Shown here piece after piece: positions 26,252-30,584 of a stretch of 64,000 nucleotides of DNA (positions within the stretch are counted from its first letter, which is position 1; each line of letters opens with the position of its first letter). This stretch comes from Marinobacterium stanieri (GTDB lineage Bacteria; Pseudomonadota; Gammaproteobacteria; Pseudomonadales; Balneatricaceae). Below the pieces are notes generated by a model, which saw only the letters and a list, made by a program, of their open reading frames with translations, made no database searches and was not told where the DNA came from. The stretch lies in contig NZ_FTMN01000001.1 in NCBI RefSeq assembly GCF_900155945.1, forward strand, positions 883,682-947,681, in the 5' to 3' direction. The translations under genes and the position numbers were made by a program.

Positions 26252-26977
26252 TTACTCTATCGAAGTGACCCAGCCATTGCCGAGCTGACGCATCTGCTGC
26301 TGGATCCAGTCGGCGCGTTGGCGCACATAATCCGTCGGCGGCTGTGCCACATACAACCAGGGGTTGGGCAAAATGGCCGCAAGGCGCGCCGACTGGTCCA
26401 CCGTCAGGCGTTCAGCCGGGCGCTGATACCAGTATTCACTGGCCGCTCCCACGCCATAGACACCTGGCGCAAACTCGACGATGTTCAGGTACAGCTCCAG
26501 AATACGCCGCTTGCCCAGTATGCCCTCCAACATCAGCGCCAGCGGCGCTTCCATGCCTTTGCGCACCCAGTCACGACCGGGCCAGAGGAAAAGATTCTTG
26601 GCTGTTTGCTGCGTCAGCGTGCTGGCACCTCTCAGCCCCTTGCCGTCCATCGCCTCGGATACCGCCTGCTGCACGGCGTGAAGATCGATGCCGTTATGCA
26701 ACGGGAAGCGCTGATCCTCACTGGCGACCACCGCCAGCTGCATGCTGACCGGGATTTGCTCCAGATCGACCCACTGGTGGCTATACTCCTCCGGGTAACC
26801 GGCCGGGCTGGTTAACTCGCGCCAGGCCAGCCAGGACCAGACCGGCGGGTTGATCACCTTCAGGCCAAGCACAATCAACGTCAGCAGCAGTACTGCGGCC
26901 AGCAGACTGCGCCACAACAGGCGCCAAAGCGGGCGTAGCAGGTAACGGGACAGTTTGGATGGGGGACGACTGGCCAA
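26252..26977 (-). CDS. mtgA: Monofunctional peptidoglycan glycosyltransferase
   Basis: MtgA polymerises lipid II into glycan strands at the periplasmic face. The 241-residue protein has one N-terminal membrane anchor (about residues 19-41) and a family 51 glycosyltransferase domain. Visible motifs are 'ASEDQRFPLHNGID' with the catalytic Glu, 'GASTLTQQTAKNLFLW', 'KRRILELYLNIVEFAPGVYG' and 'AARLAAILPNP'-like text at the end. The start is a TTG at 26977 with AGAGG just upstream; no earlier ATG fits. It is divergent from the copper operon. Confidence 0.93.
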   Translation of the reverse strand: MASRPPSKLSRYLLRPLWRLLWRSLLAAVLLLTLIVLGLKVINPPVWSWLAWRELTSPAGYPEEYSHQWVDLEQIPVSMQLAVVASEDQRFPLHNGIDLHAVQQAVSEAMDGKGLRGASTLTQQTAKNLFLWPGRDWVRKGMEAPLALMLEGILGKRRILELYLNIVEFAPGVYGVGAASEYWYQRPAERLTVDQSARLAAILPNPWLYVAQPPTDYVRQRADWIQQQMRQLGNGWVTSIE

Positions 26978-27082
26978 AAGACCTCTGTAAATGATTCCAA
27001 AAGATTAAGGAAAGGTGCGGAACTCTCGCGCTAAGCTCCGGTCATCTTGTAACTACTATGCCAAACTCTGATTACCACTGTC

Positions 27083-27412
27083 ATGCTTGATACGCCCCGA
27101 TACAGACTCACAGGATTGCTCAGTGCCCTCTCACTGGTCCTGCTGTTGCTGGCACCGGTACTGGTGTCGGCCGTACCTGTATCAAATGATGTAGCCGTCG
27201 GTATGATGGCCCACGGGCATGACAATCAACATGGCGAAGACAGCAGCCTGTCTTGTTGGCAGCAATGCCTGAACAGCTGCAGCAACCACTGCACACCGGT
27301 TTTAACCAGCTTGCCGCTGGCCCACCAGGCCAGCCATCGCCTTGGTCAGTCTCGGCCAAACCTCTACCAGCCCCTCTTCCCCTCGGGGCTGCACCGCCCT
27401 CCAAGAACCTGA
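27083..27412 (+). CDS. Cys-rich copper-operon leader peptide (CopL/CutF-like upstream ORF)
   Basis: The 109-residue product has a hydrophobic export segment (about residues 8-31), then His-rich 'HGHDNQHGED' and a Cys array 'CWQQCLNSCSNHC' in which cysteines recur every four residues. It ends in a Pro/Arg-rich tail 'HRPPRT'. Small proteins of this design precede multicopper-oxidase genes in other proteobacteria (CopL in Xanthomonas, CutF in Rhodobacter, CruR in Bordetella) and act as copper-sensing upstream ORFs. The stop codon (27410-27412) is inside the 5' arm of an inverted repeat whose 3' arm covers the copA ribosome-binding site. The structural role is inferred; homology was not computed. 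Confidence 0.7.
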   Translation: MLDTPRYRLTGLLSALSLVLLLLAPVLVSAVPVSNDVAVGMMAHGHDNQHGEDSSLSCWQQCLNSCSNHCTPVLTSLPLAHQASHRLGQSRPNLYQPLFPSGLHRPPRT

Positions 27413-27470
27413 ACAGCTTTTAATTCCGCTGCCCATGACGGGCAGCCAAGGACTTTATTTGCTGTTCAGG
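27408..27470 (+). promoter_or_regulatory. RNA switch candidate between leader ORF and copA
   Basis: CCTGAACAGC (27408-27417) and GCTGTTCAGG (27461-27470) form a perfect 10-bp inverted repeat. Between them sits a 7-bp hairpin, GCTGCCC/GGGCAGC (27428-27446). The left arm contains the leader-ORF stop codon, and the right arm overlaps the copA Shine-Dalgarno AGGAG. Ribosomes reaching or pausing at the end of the leader ORF would open the stem and free copA. Confidence 0.75.
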
Positions 27471-27479
27471 AGTACTTTC

Positions 27480-29423
27480 ATGAGCAAGGACAACGTTTTA
27501 CGTGCGCCTTCACGGCGCCGCTTTGTCCAGGGGCTGGCCCTGGGCGGTCTGGCCGCGGGGCTGGGTTTGACTGCACGCCCGCTGCTGGCTGCCAAGGCAC
27601 CATCAACAGGTAACGCGCCGGTACTGACCGGCACCACATTCGATCTCGACATTGGCCACCAACTGGTCAACTTCACCGGCAAGGAAAAACTGGCGACCAC
27701 CGTTAACGGTTCCCTGCCGGCTCCGATTTTGCGCTGGCGTGAAGGCGAGCGTGTACGCCTTAATGTCAGCAACCATCTGGACTCGGACTCATCCATTCAC
27801 TGGCACGGCCTGATTCTGCCGTCCGAAATGGACGGCGTGCCGGGGCTGAGCTTTGATGGCATCGCCCCCGGTGAAACCTTCACTTACGAGTTTGATGTAC
27901 AACAGAATGGCACCTACTGGTACCACAGCCATTCAGGTTTTCAGGAACAGACCGGTCTCTACGGTGCCATCATCATCGATCCCAAGGAGCCGGAGCCCTT
28001 CAGCTACGATCGTGAGCATGTTGTGCTGCTGTCGGACTGGAGCGATACGCCCCCGGAGCAGGTCTACGCCAACCTGAAAAAGATGAGCCACTACTACAAC
28101 CGGCGTGAGCGCAATCTGACCGATGATCTCATTCCCGAGATCAGGAAGGATGGCCTGGGCACTACTCTCTCGCGTCGGCAGATGTGGGAAAAGATGCGCA
28201 TGAGCGACCGCGACATCTCCGATGTAACCGGCTATACCTACACCTTTCTGATGAACGGCCAGACCCCGGCCAGTGGCTGGACCGGCCTGTTCACACCGGG
28301 CGAAAAGGTACGCCTGCGGGTGATTAACGCGGCTGCCATGACCTTCTTTGACCTGCGCATTCCCGGCCTGAAAATGACAGTGGTAGCCTGCGATGGCCAG
28401 CATGTGGAACCGGTCGACGTGGATGAATTCCGCATCGGCGTTGCCGAAACCATAGATGTCATCGTGGAACCCCAGGCCCATCAGGCCTATGCCCTCTTTG
28501 CCCAGGCCATCGATCGCTCCGGCTATGCCTTCGGCCAGCTGACGCCAGACCCGTCACTGACCGCAACGCCGCCACCACTGGACCCGGCCCCCGAGCTGAG
28601 TCACATGGATATGGGGATGGATATGAGCGGTGCCGGCCATGACGGGCACGGCAGCAGCCATGCTGCTCAGAATCCGGGCCATGACGGGCATGTCATGCCG
28701 ATGTCGAATGCGCATGATGGGCACGCGATGCCCATGCCTGCAGCAGCCCCCATGAATCACGGCAGCATGAACCACGACAAAATGGAACACGGCAGCCCTG
28801 ATGCAGACATCCACAAGGCTATGCATAAAAGCATGCATCAGGGCATGTCTCATGCAGCAGGCAAGACCATGGAACCCGCTTACAAGGGTCATCCGCTCTC
28901 GGCTGGCATGCCGGTTCATGCCGACAGCGAGTACGGCCCTCATGTGGATATGCGTGCCGAAGCACCGCAATACCGTCTCGACGATCCGGGTGTTGGCCTG
29001 CGCAACAACGGTCGCAAGGTTTTGACCTATGCCGATCTGCGCAGCCTGCACCCCACGCCGGATACGCGCGAGCCAGGCCGCGAGATTGAACTGCATTTGA
29101 CCGGCAATATGAGCCGCTACATGTGGTCAATCAACGGCATTCGCTACGCCGAAGCCGAGCCCATTCACCTGACATACGGCGAGCGCGTTCGCATCACTCT
29201 GGTGAATGACACCATGATGCCGCACCCGGTTCATCTCCACGGCATGTGGAGTGATCTGGATACCGGCGATGCCACTCACCTGCCCCGCAAGCACACTCTG
29301 GTGGTGCAACCGGGTGCCCGGCTGAGCTACCTGGTCACTGCCGATGCCCGCGGCGAGTGGGCATTCCACTGCCATCTGCTCTATCACATGATGGGCATGT
29401 TCCGAAAAGTCGTGGTCAGCTAA
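27480..29423 (+). CDS. copA: Periplasmic multicopper oxidase, copper resistance protein A
   Basis: CopA oxidises Cu(I) to the less toxic Cu(II) and binds copper in the periplasm. The 647-residue protein has a Tat signal ('SRRRFVQGLALGG'), so it is exported folded. The four copper motifs are complete: 'HWHG' (about residue 105), 'HSH' in 'YWYHSHSGF' (about 147), 'HPVHLHG' (about 581) and 'HCHLLYHMMGMF' (about 629). Residues about 375-465 are a Met/His-rich insert with repeated 'GHDGH', 'MPM' and 'MNH' units. The ATG at 27480 has AGGAG nine bases upstream, within the switch described above. It is followed by copB after 10 bp. Confidence 0.95.
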   Translation: MSKDNVLRAPSRRRFVQGLALGGLAAGLGLTARPLLAAKAPSTGNAPVLTGTTFDLDIGHQLVNFTGKEKLATTVNGSLPAPILRWREGERVRLNVSNHLDSDSSIHWHGLILPSEMDGVPGLSFDGIAPGETFTYEFDVQQNGTYWYHSHSGFQEQTGLYGAIIIDPKEPEPFSYDREHVVLLSDWSDTPPEQVYANLKKMSHYYNRRERNLTDDLIPEIRKDGLGTTLSRRQMWEKMRMSDRDISDVTGYTYTFLMNGQTPASGWTGLFTPGEKVRLRVINAAAMTFFDLRIPGLKMTVVACDGQHVEPVDVDEFRIGVAETIDVIVEPQAHQAYALFAQAIDRSGYAFGQLTPDPSLTATPPPLDPAPELSHMDMGMDMSGAGHDGHGSSHAAQNPGHDGHVMPMSNAHDGHAMPMPAAAPMNHGSMNHDKMEHGSPDADIHKAMHKSMHQGMSHAAGKTMEPAYKGHPLSAGMPVHADSEYGPHVDMRAEAPQYRLDDPGVGLRNNGRKVLTYADLRSLHPTPDTREPGREIELHLTGNMSRYMWSINGIRYAEAEPIHLTYGERVRITLVNDTMMPHPVHLHGMWSDLDTGDATHLPRKHTLVVQPGARLSYLVTADARGEWAFHCHLLYHMMGMFRKVVVS

Positions 29424-29433
29424 GGAGAGAAAC

Positions 29434-30135
29434 ATGAACAAACTGAGATACTTGCCCCTGCTGGCCCTTTTGACCCCGACACTGTCACAGGCAGCCATGG
29501 ACGATGACCCGTTGCTGGCCATGCTCAATGTAAAACAGCTTGAAGCCTCTTACAGCGAGGATGACACCCGCCTGCAATGGAATGTAGAAGGCTGGCTCGG
29601 CACCGATTTGCACAAACTGGTGCTGACCAGCGAAGGCGCGCGCCTGGATGGCCGCAGCGAAAGCCAGGAACTGCGCCTGTTTTATCGCCGCGCCATCAGC
29701 CCCTACTGGAACATGGAGCTGGGCTGGCATCATGAGCCTCTGGCCGAGCAGCGTGATGATCGCGCCCTGATCGGCTTCAGCGGCACAGCCCCCTGGTTTA
29801 TCGAAACCGAGGCGACCCTGCTGGCTGGCCCGGGCACTGACCTGAGTGCAGAGCTGAGTCTGGAACGCGAAGTCCGGCTATCCCGTCAATGGGTACTGGC
29901 CCCCGAAATCGGCCTGACAGCACACAATTTCAGCGATACCGCCGAACATCAGGGCAGCGGTCTGTCGGACCTGGATCTGGAGTTACGCCTGTTATGGGAA
30001 ATACGTCCTGACGTTATGCCTTACGTCGGTGTCACCTGGGAACGTAAACTGGGAGATACTGCTGATTTGGCCCGCGCGACAGGACATGACGTTGAGGAAA
30101 CCCAGTGGCGACTGGGTATAAGTTTCTGGTTCTAA
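29434..30135 (+). CDS. copB: Outer-membrane copper resistance protein B
   Basis: The 233-residue protein has a Sec signal (about residues 1-20) and a beta-rich mature region of CopB type: 'LQWNVEGWLGTDLHKLVLTSEG', 'RAISPYWNMELGWHHE' and a C-terminal 'WRLGISFWF' ending in an aromatic residue, as outer-membrane barrels do. CopB probably binds copper at the outer membrane. Many CopB proteins carry a long Met-rich N-terminal domain; this one lacks it, so it is a short form. AAGGAGAG precedes the ATG, 10 bp after copA. Confidence 0.92.
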   Translation: MNKLRYLPLLALLTPTLSQAAMDDDPLLAMLNVKQLEASYSEDDTRLQWNVEGWLGTDLHKLVLTSEGARLDGRSESQELRLFYRRAISPYWNMELGWHHEPLAEQRDDRALIGFSGTAPWFIETEATLLAGPGTDLSAELSLEREVRLSRQWVLAPEIGLTAHNFSDTAEHQGSGLSDLDLELRLLWEIRPDVMPYVGVTWERKLGDTADLARATGHDVEETQWRLGISFWF

Positions 30136-30146
30136 CGGAGATCACA

Positions 30147-30584
30147 ATGAAACACACAATAAAAAAAGCGGCTTTTACCCTTGGCTTGCTGGCCCTGCCA
30201 ATGGCAGCCAGCGCCCACAGTAATCATTGCGAGGACACTCAGCTGGGCGAGCAGATGAAGTCGCTGAAGGACAGTTTCAAGACCTATCGCCAGGCCCTGT
30301 CTGAAGAGGATTGGCAGCAAATGGCGGCAGCACGTGGGGACATGCAGGAACTCGCGGAAGCAGCCGCTGACGAGCGCCCACTCAAGCTGCATGATCTGCC
30401 TGCCGAGCAGCATCCGCAGATGATGCAGGATTATCAGCAAGGTCTGGACAGGCTGAATAACCTGTTTAACCAGCTGGCCGAGGCAGAACAGACGCAGGAT
30501 GCTGATACCGCTACCGACCTGGTGGGCATGATCGGCAAGCACAGCAAGCAAAGCCATGAGTCCCTGCGCAAGGATTGCGACTAG
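30147..30584 (+). CDS. Cytochrome b562-family periplasmic protein
   Basis: The 145-residue protein has a Sec signal peptide (residues 1-22, 'MAASAHS') and a four-helix-bundle mature part like E. coli CybC. A Met in 'LGEQMKSLKDSF' aligns with axial ligand Met7, and a His in 'SKQSHESLRKD' with axial ligand His102. 'PLKLHDLP' matches the loop 'PPKLEDKSP'. The extra N-terminal 'HSNHCEDTQ' and the C-terminal Cys are additional possible metal ligands. It follows copB by 11 bp, with CGGAG upstream. Electron transfer linked to CopA is possible, but so is a copper-binding role without heme. Confidence 0.78.
   Translation: MKHTIKKAAFTLGLLALPMAASAHSNHCEDTQLGEQMKSLKDSFKTYRQALSEEDWQQMAAARGDMQELAEAAADERPLKLHDLPAEQHPQMMQDYQQGLDRLNNLFNQLAEAEQTQDADTATDLVGMIGKHSKQSHESLRKDCD

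Follow-up and report, generated by a model that had tools for sequence, protein, structure and literature searches.

A cysteine-rich leader and a predicted stem over the copA Shine-Dalgarno sequence of Marinobacterium stanieri point to a copper-responsive translational switch

Results and discussion

A leader with Pro-Pro near its end precedes a predicted stem that hides the copA ribosome-binding site

In a 64,000-nucleotide (nt) stretch of the Marinobacterium stanieri genome (RefSeq assembly GCF_900155945.1, contig NZ_FTMN01000001.1, positions 883,682 to 947,681; hereafter the window, with its first letter as position 1) the copper resistance gene copA is preceded by a short open reading frame (ORF) for a Cys-rich leader. 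This locus is likely to be a switch of the CutF/CopL type that sets copA translation in response to copper and in which a ribosome pausing at a Pro-Pro pair would free the Shine-Dalgarno sequence (SD) of copA. Sequestration of the SD in a conserved predicted stem, and the spacing of that stem from the Pro-Pro codons, are supported by computation, and so is the recurrence of this geometry among copA leaders that resemble that of the window little in sequence. That copper alters the behavior of the ribosome would follow by analogy with CutF, going by the available text of PMC9973294.

The leader ORF, like all features described below, lies on the forward strand (27083-27412); the ORF list and its translation give 109 codons with an ATG start and a TGA stop, and homologs occur in four other Marinobacterium genomes. 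Residues 9-30 (27107-27172) form a hydrophobic, Sec-signal-like segment, with a maximum of 2.9 over 12 residues in a hydropathy profile rather than in a signal-peptide prediction. Cysteines at residues 58, 62, 66 and 70 make up a C-x3-C-x3-C-x3-C motif (27254-27292), which is invariant in the five Marinobacterium leaders and precedes the first Pro of the Pro-Pro pair by 48 to 36 residues. The protein ends in GLHRPPRT, and within this tail the Arg-Pro-Pro codons R105, P106 and P107 (27395-27403), again invariant in all five, are the proposed pause site. A preliminary description, made from the bare letters, had noted the 109 codons, the four cysteines, the Pro/Arg tail and a stop codon lying within an arm of the stem, all of which are confirmed.

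Downstream of the Pro-Pro codons, after 4 nt past the second of them, begins the 5' or anti-SD arm, CCTGAACAGC (27408-27417), which includes the TGA stop (27410-27412); it was recognized by folding, by helix scoring and in relatives. Its perfect 10-base-pair (bp) complement, the 3' arm GCTGTTCAGG, lies at 27461-27470 and is likewise supported by the fold and by relatives. The stem thus formed takes in AGG, the first three bases of the copA SD AGGAG (27468-27472), as read from the sequence 7 nt before the ATG at 27480. Between the arms the fold places an inner hairpin (27428-27446) of 7 bp with a loop of 5 (27428-27434 paired with 27440-27446). When 27395-27485 was folded, as had been suggested, all 10 arm pairs formed at a minimum free energy of -35.3 kcal/mol (stability z -5.33, none of 200 shuffles being equally stable), and the identical stem is present in the minimum free energy structure of a 436-nt stretch. 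Hence both the stem over the SD and the second hairpin between its arms, as originally proposed, are recovered in the predicted structure. No terminator-like site was found in 26850-27600, and a scan for known RNA families gave a lone match below its cut-off, to mir-3135 on the opposite strand (26 bits against 80, E 0.022). The preliminary description overlooked that CCTGAACAGC recurs exactly within the Cys-cluster codons at 27268-27277; since relatives do not keep this further copy, it is probably due to chance, and we rejected it as a functional alternative arm.

The stem is retained in Marinobacterium with compensatory change

Searches with the leader returned matches in 6 of 116 genomes of the family, the window's own included; one of these, in genome G033 (E 4.7e-4), was spurious and was dropped for a stop inside its frame. 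The true relatives are four, all within the genus and drawn from seven other genus genomes searched; the host and its leader-bearing relatives are all Marinobacterium (Gammaproteobacteria, Oceanospirillales). A wide scan of named genomes recovered four loci, these relatives again. When the profile of the Marinobacterium leaders was run across the class, 11 weak matches (E 0.002-0.009) came up besides the window's own, and a plasmid search with the leader gave no match. Among the positions kept in all five leaders are C58, C62, C66, C70, Y95, F99-P100 and L103-H-R-P-P107.

The preliminary description had looked to conservation of the arms, and across the five sequences the alignment bears this out, every 5' arm containing CCTGA and every 3' arm TCAGG (CCUGA/UCAGG in the RNA). 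The five hold 10, 10, 9, 8 and 8 of the 10 pairs; as the relatives account for 10, 9, 8 and 8 of these, the stem is more than a chance pairing. Beyond the core it varies, partly with compensatory changes. Pair 7 is C-G, U-A, U-A, A-A and A-U across the five, where the shift from C-G to U-A alters both sides cleanly. At pair 9 four loci have G-C and one has A-U. Being flanked by mismatches, the A-U pairs found in L056 weigh less as compensation. The codon before the leader stop is ACC or GCC (Thr or Ala), so that its last CC is retained although the amino acid varies. The gap of each relative folds at least one inner hairpin, the sequences of which differ.

The anti-SD zone follows the Pro-Pro codons rather than the stop codon

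To place this arrangement in a wider context we collected copA genes (TIGR01480) from 116 family and 369 class genomes and scanned their upstream DNA for leaders, defined as same-strand ORFs with a Cys pair and with Pro-Pro close to their end. By loose rules leaders precede 59 of 136 copA loci with a start, and by stricter rules (hydrophobic segment, gap of at most 330 nt) CutF-like leaders precede 54 of the 136; the latter rules dropped ORFs with low hydropathy, a gap above 330 nt or Pro-Pro distant from the end, L133 included. The copA surveys omitted weaker multicopper oxidases and matches whose start falls after position 8 of the profile (among them L040-L045 and L057-L060 of the family set, with no usable start), together with L050 and L197 (no start), a single match of the phylum set lying at the edge of its contig, and the class matches G301 and G224. 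Arg stands before Pro-Pro in 44 of the 54 leaders, and exactly two residues follow it in 33. The last Cys lies 36-45 residues before Pro-Pro in 49, a descriptive count without a null, and the remaining five have one Cys in that range plus a later one. Thus, judged by sequence, the surveyed leaders mostly end in x-R-P-P plus a short tail, with Marinobacterium as one branch. When 10 of the 54 were scanned against NCBIfam and Pfam, three passed the CopL_fam cut-off, one reached 38.4 bits, four 17.6-28.4 bits and two had no CopL_fam match; the DUF2946 cut-off was reached by none of the 10. Leaders with DUF2946, considered as a contrast set, were set aside as too few, since only 2 of 229 genomes had a match with E of 1e-6 or lower.

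For each locus the copA SD region was paired without gaps against a zone close to the leader end and the top helix score was taken, with a null in which SDs were swapped in from other loci and composition was thus preserved. The zone was first spotted by eye and then scored, and a second draw of genomes served as a test with settings fixed in advance. Near-relatives were dropped before counting (L035, L038, L055, L056, L093, L106, L109, L117 and L153 from both the 44- and 55-locus sets, L105 from the 44-locus set only, L174 and L177 from the 55-locus set only). Sliding 16-nt zones over 44 non-redundant loci gave z 8.83, 9.72 and 6.72 at 0, +4 and +8 nt past the second Pro codon, with 4.05 at -4, 1.75 at +12 and values of -0.65 to 2.62 elsewhere. 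For a 28-nt zone the 44 loci total 676 versus 530.5 under the null (standard deviation 16.6; 0 of 20000 permutations), and 11 of the 44 reach p 0.05 singly. Leaving out Marinobacterium, z is 8.04 (43 loci). The second draw, of 398 phylum genomes, supplied 71 new copA loci with a start and 12 leaders, several of which belong to families present in the first set; under unchanged settings these gave z 5.03 (1 of 20000, n=12), 4.37 once two loci closely related to one in the first set were dropped (0 of 20000, n=10) and 3.46 when the strongest member was removed as well (16 of 20000, n=9). A control was made up of leaderless copA loci, of which 69 of 77 had a clear SD and sufficient upstream DNA and 63 were non-redundant; in these, pairing of the SD with upstream DNA was at chance level (z 0.24), whereas leader loci scored over the same interval gave z 7.47 (n=44). 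Helices scoring at least 16 and starting 0-9 nt after Pro-Pro are found in 20 of 55 loci, the swaps having a mean of 2.3, a standard deviation of 1.5 and a maximum of 9 in 500.

The preliminary description had made the stop codon the pivot of the design, and this does not hold up as a general rule. Over all 55 loci the zone anchored on Pro-Pro gives z 10.84 and that anchored on the stop 8.93, the stop also scoring well because most tails are short. Where the stop lies at least 9 nt away (n=22) the values separate to 6.40 for the Pro-Pro anchor and 2.74 for the stop anchor, and where it lies at least 12 nt away (n=13) to 5.65 and 2.49, with -0.99 beyond the stop; the residual stop-anchored signal of the long-tailed leaders is perhaps due to overlap of the two zones. 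The 20 strong arms start 5.05 nt (standard deviation 2.4) from Pro-Pro and -4.55 nt (standard deviation 6.1) from the stop, but as these arms were selected for starting 0-9 nt after Pro-Pro the z values are the fairer comparison. On these values the anti-SD zone tracks Pro-Pro and not the stop codon; the overlap of stop and arm in Marinobacterium arises because the tail is only two residues long, whereby the two positions coincide.

The anchor comparison bears directly on plain translational coupling, under which ribosomes translating the leader and terminating at its end would melt the stem, so that the output of copA would simply mirror translation of the leader while copper control resided at the promoter. 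The arm overlaps the ORF end, where any terminating ribosome would open it, the stop-anchored zone is itself strong over the 55 loci, and promoter-like blocks lie upstream of the leader; yet coupling has no need for a Cys cluster and an RPP at near-constant spacing, and where the tail is longer the arm keeps to Pro-Pro instead of moving with the stop. We therefore regard coupling as an unlikely account of the locus. An even less probable view, to which we attach hardly any weight, makes the small protein a periplasmic copper-binding partner of CopA and the stem a mere stabilizer or a brake on copA. It would accommodate the signal-like segment and the four cysteines, and the first CutF paper, in its available text, read CutF as a copper-binding component (PMC8456105). 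It does not account for an arm placed relative to the Pro-Pro codons or for RPP conserved at the very end of the leader, and CutF functions only in cis according to the accessible part of PMC9973294.

Seven loci with no strong arm after Pro-Pro (L054, L064, L108, L109, L112, L121 and L122) do have complements of the SD, 7-11 bp long, that begin 23-43 nt ahead of the stop and perhaps represent another layout of the switch, or chance.

Predicted cost of freeing the SD and points that weigh against a pause-driven switch

In a further test, only the RNA 3' of a moving edge was folded and the cost of freeing the SD computed. At the window locus the predicted cost falls from about 7.5 to 2.0-4.6 kcal/mol once RNA upstream of +6 or more nt past Pro-Pro is removed, which mimics a ribosome paused at that place. 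The five Marinobacterium loci go from 6.5-7.8 kcal/mol at 0 nt to 2.0-2.9 at +8, and in all of them the drop comes as the edge moves from +4 to +6 nt past Pro-Pro (from 6.8-7.6 down to 1.9-2.2). Averaged over 47 loci the cost declines from 5.19 at 0 to 2.77 kcal/mol at +12, and over 18 strong loci from 7.25 to 2.42; the latter drop is partly by construction, because the strong group was chosen by pairing in that zone, and the 47-locus mean is less biased, yet contains the strong group. The probability that the SD is unpaired, again without upstream RNA, rises in both means; it shows no rise in the other 29 loci and no lasting rise at the window locus.

Several observations count against a pause-driven switch. 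A strong arm at 0-9 nt after Pro-Pro is absent from 35 of the 55 loci, so that either the spacing rule does not apply everywhere or some loci rely on different structures. For the 29 loci not in the strong group, the opening cost declines only gradually (3.92 at 0 to 2.99 kcal/mol at +12). At the window locus the cost is 3.7 kcal/mol at +10, roughly the expected position of the paused ribosome's edge, and then 4.2-4.6 up to +14, since other weak pairing returns, and at L035 it goes back up to 3.8-3.9. The unpaired probability at the window locus is 0.39 when free and 0.25 when masked by a ribosome footprint, and without upstream RNA it is 0.54 at +6 and 0.26 at +10. Over 51 loci, footprint masking raised the unpaired probability by at least 0.3 in 10, against 6 and 3 with displaced footprints, which is not significant (p 0.26 and 0.09), probably because RNA upstream of the ribosome could still pair. 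L055 and L056 hold only 8 of 10 pairs each, with mismatches inside the stem, and in this strain the SD could be captured and closed again by the further anti-SD copy at 27268-27277. Finally, proven arrest peptides carry RAPP or RGPP, unlike the HRPP of the leader, and the CutF study, in its available text, could not show that the Pro-rich end alone stalls ribosomes (PMC9973294).

A proposed mechanism

Under the reading that we prefer, the leader would be exported co-translationally and copper in the periplasm or the Sec channel would bind its Cys cluster, which, lying 36-48 residues before Pro-Pro, should be just outside the ribosome when the two prolines are joined. Bound copper would lengthen a pause in which the P and A sites hold the two Pro codons. 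By the toeprint convention the 3' edge of a ribosome lies about 15 nt from the first P-site base; the modeled edge would be near 27413, placing the arm where a ribosome so positioned would reach. With approximately the first 6 bases of the 10-base arm under the paused ribosome, the stem would open and a second ribosome could start copA. In the absence of copper the leader would be finished fast, the ribosome would depart, the stem would close and copA would be off. The direction, on with copper, is suggested by the nature of copA as a resistance gene and by the precedent of CutF.

A CruR-like device would run in the opposite sense: the ribosome would pause without copper, copper would release it, and the effect would be exerted through Rho-dependent termination rather than the SD. 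CruR does combine paired cysteines with a Pro-Pro terminus, and downstream expression depends on its RAPP in the accessible text of PMC9426467. Copper would then turn the downstream gene off, however, which is the wrong sense for a resistance gene; moreover, the leader of the window has no RAPP motif, and the conserved SD sequestration seen here is not part of the CruR model as presented in that text. We consider such a device very improbable at this locus.

Generalizing the preferred reading of a copper-prolonged pause, one may propose, at about even strength, that many gammaproteobacterial copA genes, CopL-led ones included, are gated by a single device with two rulers, a protein ruler from Cys to x-R-P-P and an RNA ruler from Pro-Pro to the anti-SD, with the sequence otherwise drifting freely and x-R-P-P being a copper-dependent arrest motif distinct from RAPP. 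If this is true, a Cys cluster ending 36-45 residues before x-R-P-P would read copper just outside the ribosome, and an arm starting 0-9 nt past the second Pro codon would let the paused ribosome free the SD.

Neighboring genes and upstream region

The copA gene (27480-29423) encodes a multicopper oxidase with a Tat-type signal (TIGR01480, 858.5 bits) and is followed by copB (29434-30135, PF05275) and by a gene for a cytochrome b562-like protein (30147-30584, PF07361, 39.2 bits). Upstream of the leader an alignment of the five regions reveals partly conserved, promoter-like blocks, GGAACTC and CCGGTCA (27019-27044). These are largely conserved 5' of the leader across the five Marinobacterium, and we take them to resemble the -35 and -10 elements of an extracytoplasmic function (ECF)-type sigma factor. 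The gap between leader and copA is 67 nt in the window and 67, 65, 64, 71 and 129 nt across the five loci. The copA frame stays open upstream to a TTG at 27342, so that a +1 shift near the leader end would enter CopA (27342-29423); since the five gap lengths differ modulo 3 this is likely a coincidence. Elsewhere in the survey, the L133 leader has Cys and Pro-Pro with its stop 17 nt before copA and the SD in between, a possible coupling variant. Six copA genes of the family that have no such leader (L027, L029, L030, L032, L052 and L053) are preceded by cupredoxin-like ORFs, named by eye, which stop 13-31 nt upstream of copA.

Relationship to known copper-responsive leaders and arrest peptides

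The leader of the window belongs to an already known kind of switch, that of CutF, CopL and CruR, and the kinship first suggested for it, with Cys-rich, signal-bearing leaders of the CutF/CopL sort acting in cis before copA, is supported. In Rhodobacter capsulatus cutFOG, as far as the available text of PMC9973294 and PMC8456105 goes, CutF is a small, exported, Cys-containing leader that has Pro-Pro at its end and lies in cis before a multicopper oxidase, with a stem-loop that hides the SD; copper-dependent CutO requires the translation, Cys motif, Pro-rich end, Sec signal and stem-loop of CutF (PMC9973294). The published filters for CutF-like proteins in that text include a length below 150 residues, Pro-Pro in the last 15 residues and an N-terminal signal peptide. 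With 109 residues and Pro-Pro at P106-P107 the window leader passes three of the four filters outright; on the fourth, the signal peptide, the evidence is a strong hydrophobic segment in the hydropathy profile only. It has the Cys/His motif feature in its CxxxCxxxCxxxC, invariant in all five leaders and putatively metal-binding, and, by predicted fold and conservation, the CutF-type stem-loop over the downstream SD; most CutF-like gaps are below 100 nt (PMC9973294), as is the 67 nt here. The same text lists 5,334 CutF-like proteins, among which the present leader may already be, and an earlier count beside copper oxidases gave 11 in Oceanospirillales in the accessible part of PMC8456105. It differs from CutF in extending CxxxC to four cysteines, in ending in HRPP, in preceding copA-copB-b562 and in having its 5' arm inside the end of the leader ORF, where the available text calls the CutF stem-loop intergenic and states no distance between it and Pro-Pro (PMC9973294). 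Against Pfam it matches no family at E up to 1, and hence not DUF2946 (PF11162).

CopL of Xanthomonas copLAB (CopL_fam, NF033807) shares with it a Cys-rich cis leader before copA and an RPPxx end, and is needed in cis for copper-regulated copA expression as reported in the accessible text of PMC9973294. The window leader scores 11.3 bits against CopL_fam, under the 40-bit cut-off. Among the three CopL_fam leaders of the survey, L062 and L092, which share a genome, have arms whose first base pairs lie 5 and 6 nt past Pro-Pro, and L065 has only a weak arm at 10 nt (score 17, swap p 0.15). CruR of Bordetella pertussis, in the available text of PMC9426467, is likewise an upstream ORF that responds to copper and contains paired cysteines and an arrest motif with Pro-Pro, and differs in its RAPP, its Rho dependence and a downstream gene that is off with copper; by toeprinting, its P and A sites are occupied by the two Pro codons (accessible part of PMC12992588). 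In SecM and the RAPP-type leaders too, a nascent chain pauses near its end and controls the downstream gene, SecM by freeing a hidden SD (available text of PMC10987492 and PMC12992588). There the motif is R-A/G-P-P or R-A-G-P, which is absent from the H-R-P-P end of the window leader and differs from the x-R-P-P seen here. The best-known signals of that group are export and membrane insertion, and metal-related genes also lie downstream of RAPP-type leaders (PMC12992588, accessible part).

A fixed distance from Pro-Pro to the anti-SD across copA leaders was not found in the literature on CutF, CopL, CruR, DUF2946 and copper upstream ORFs, subscription papers and supplements lying outside the search, nor does such a spacing rule appear in the available portions of PMC9426467, PMC8456105, PMC10987492, PMC12992588 and PMC10502375. 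In the accessible CutF literature the arrest itself is not demonstrated and opening of the stem by a paused ribosome is a model; a shared Pro-Pro-to-arm distance predicts the pause site to within a few bases. The spacing rule further suggests how CopL may work, and it offers a way of recognizing such switches where the protein matches no profile.

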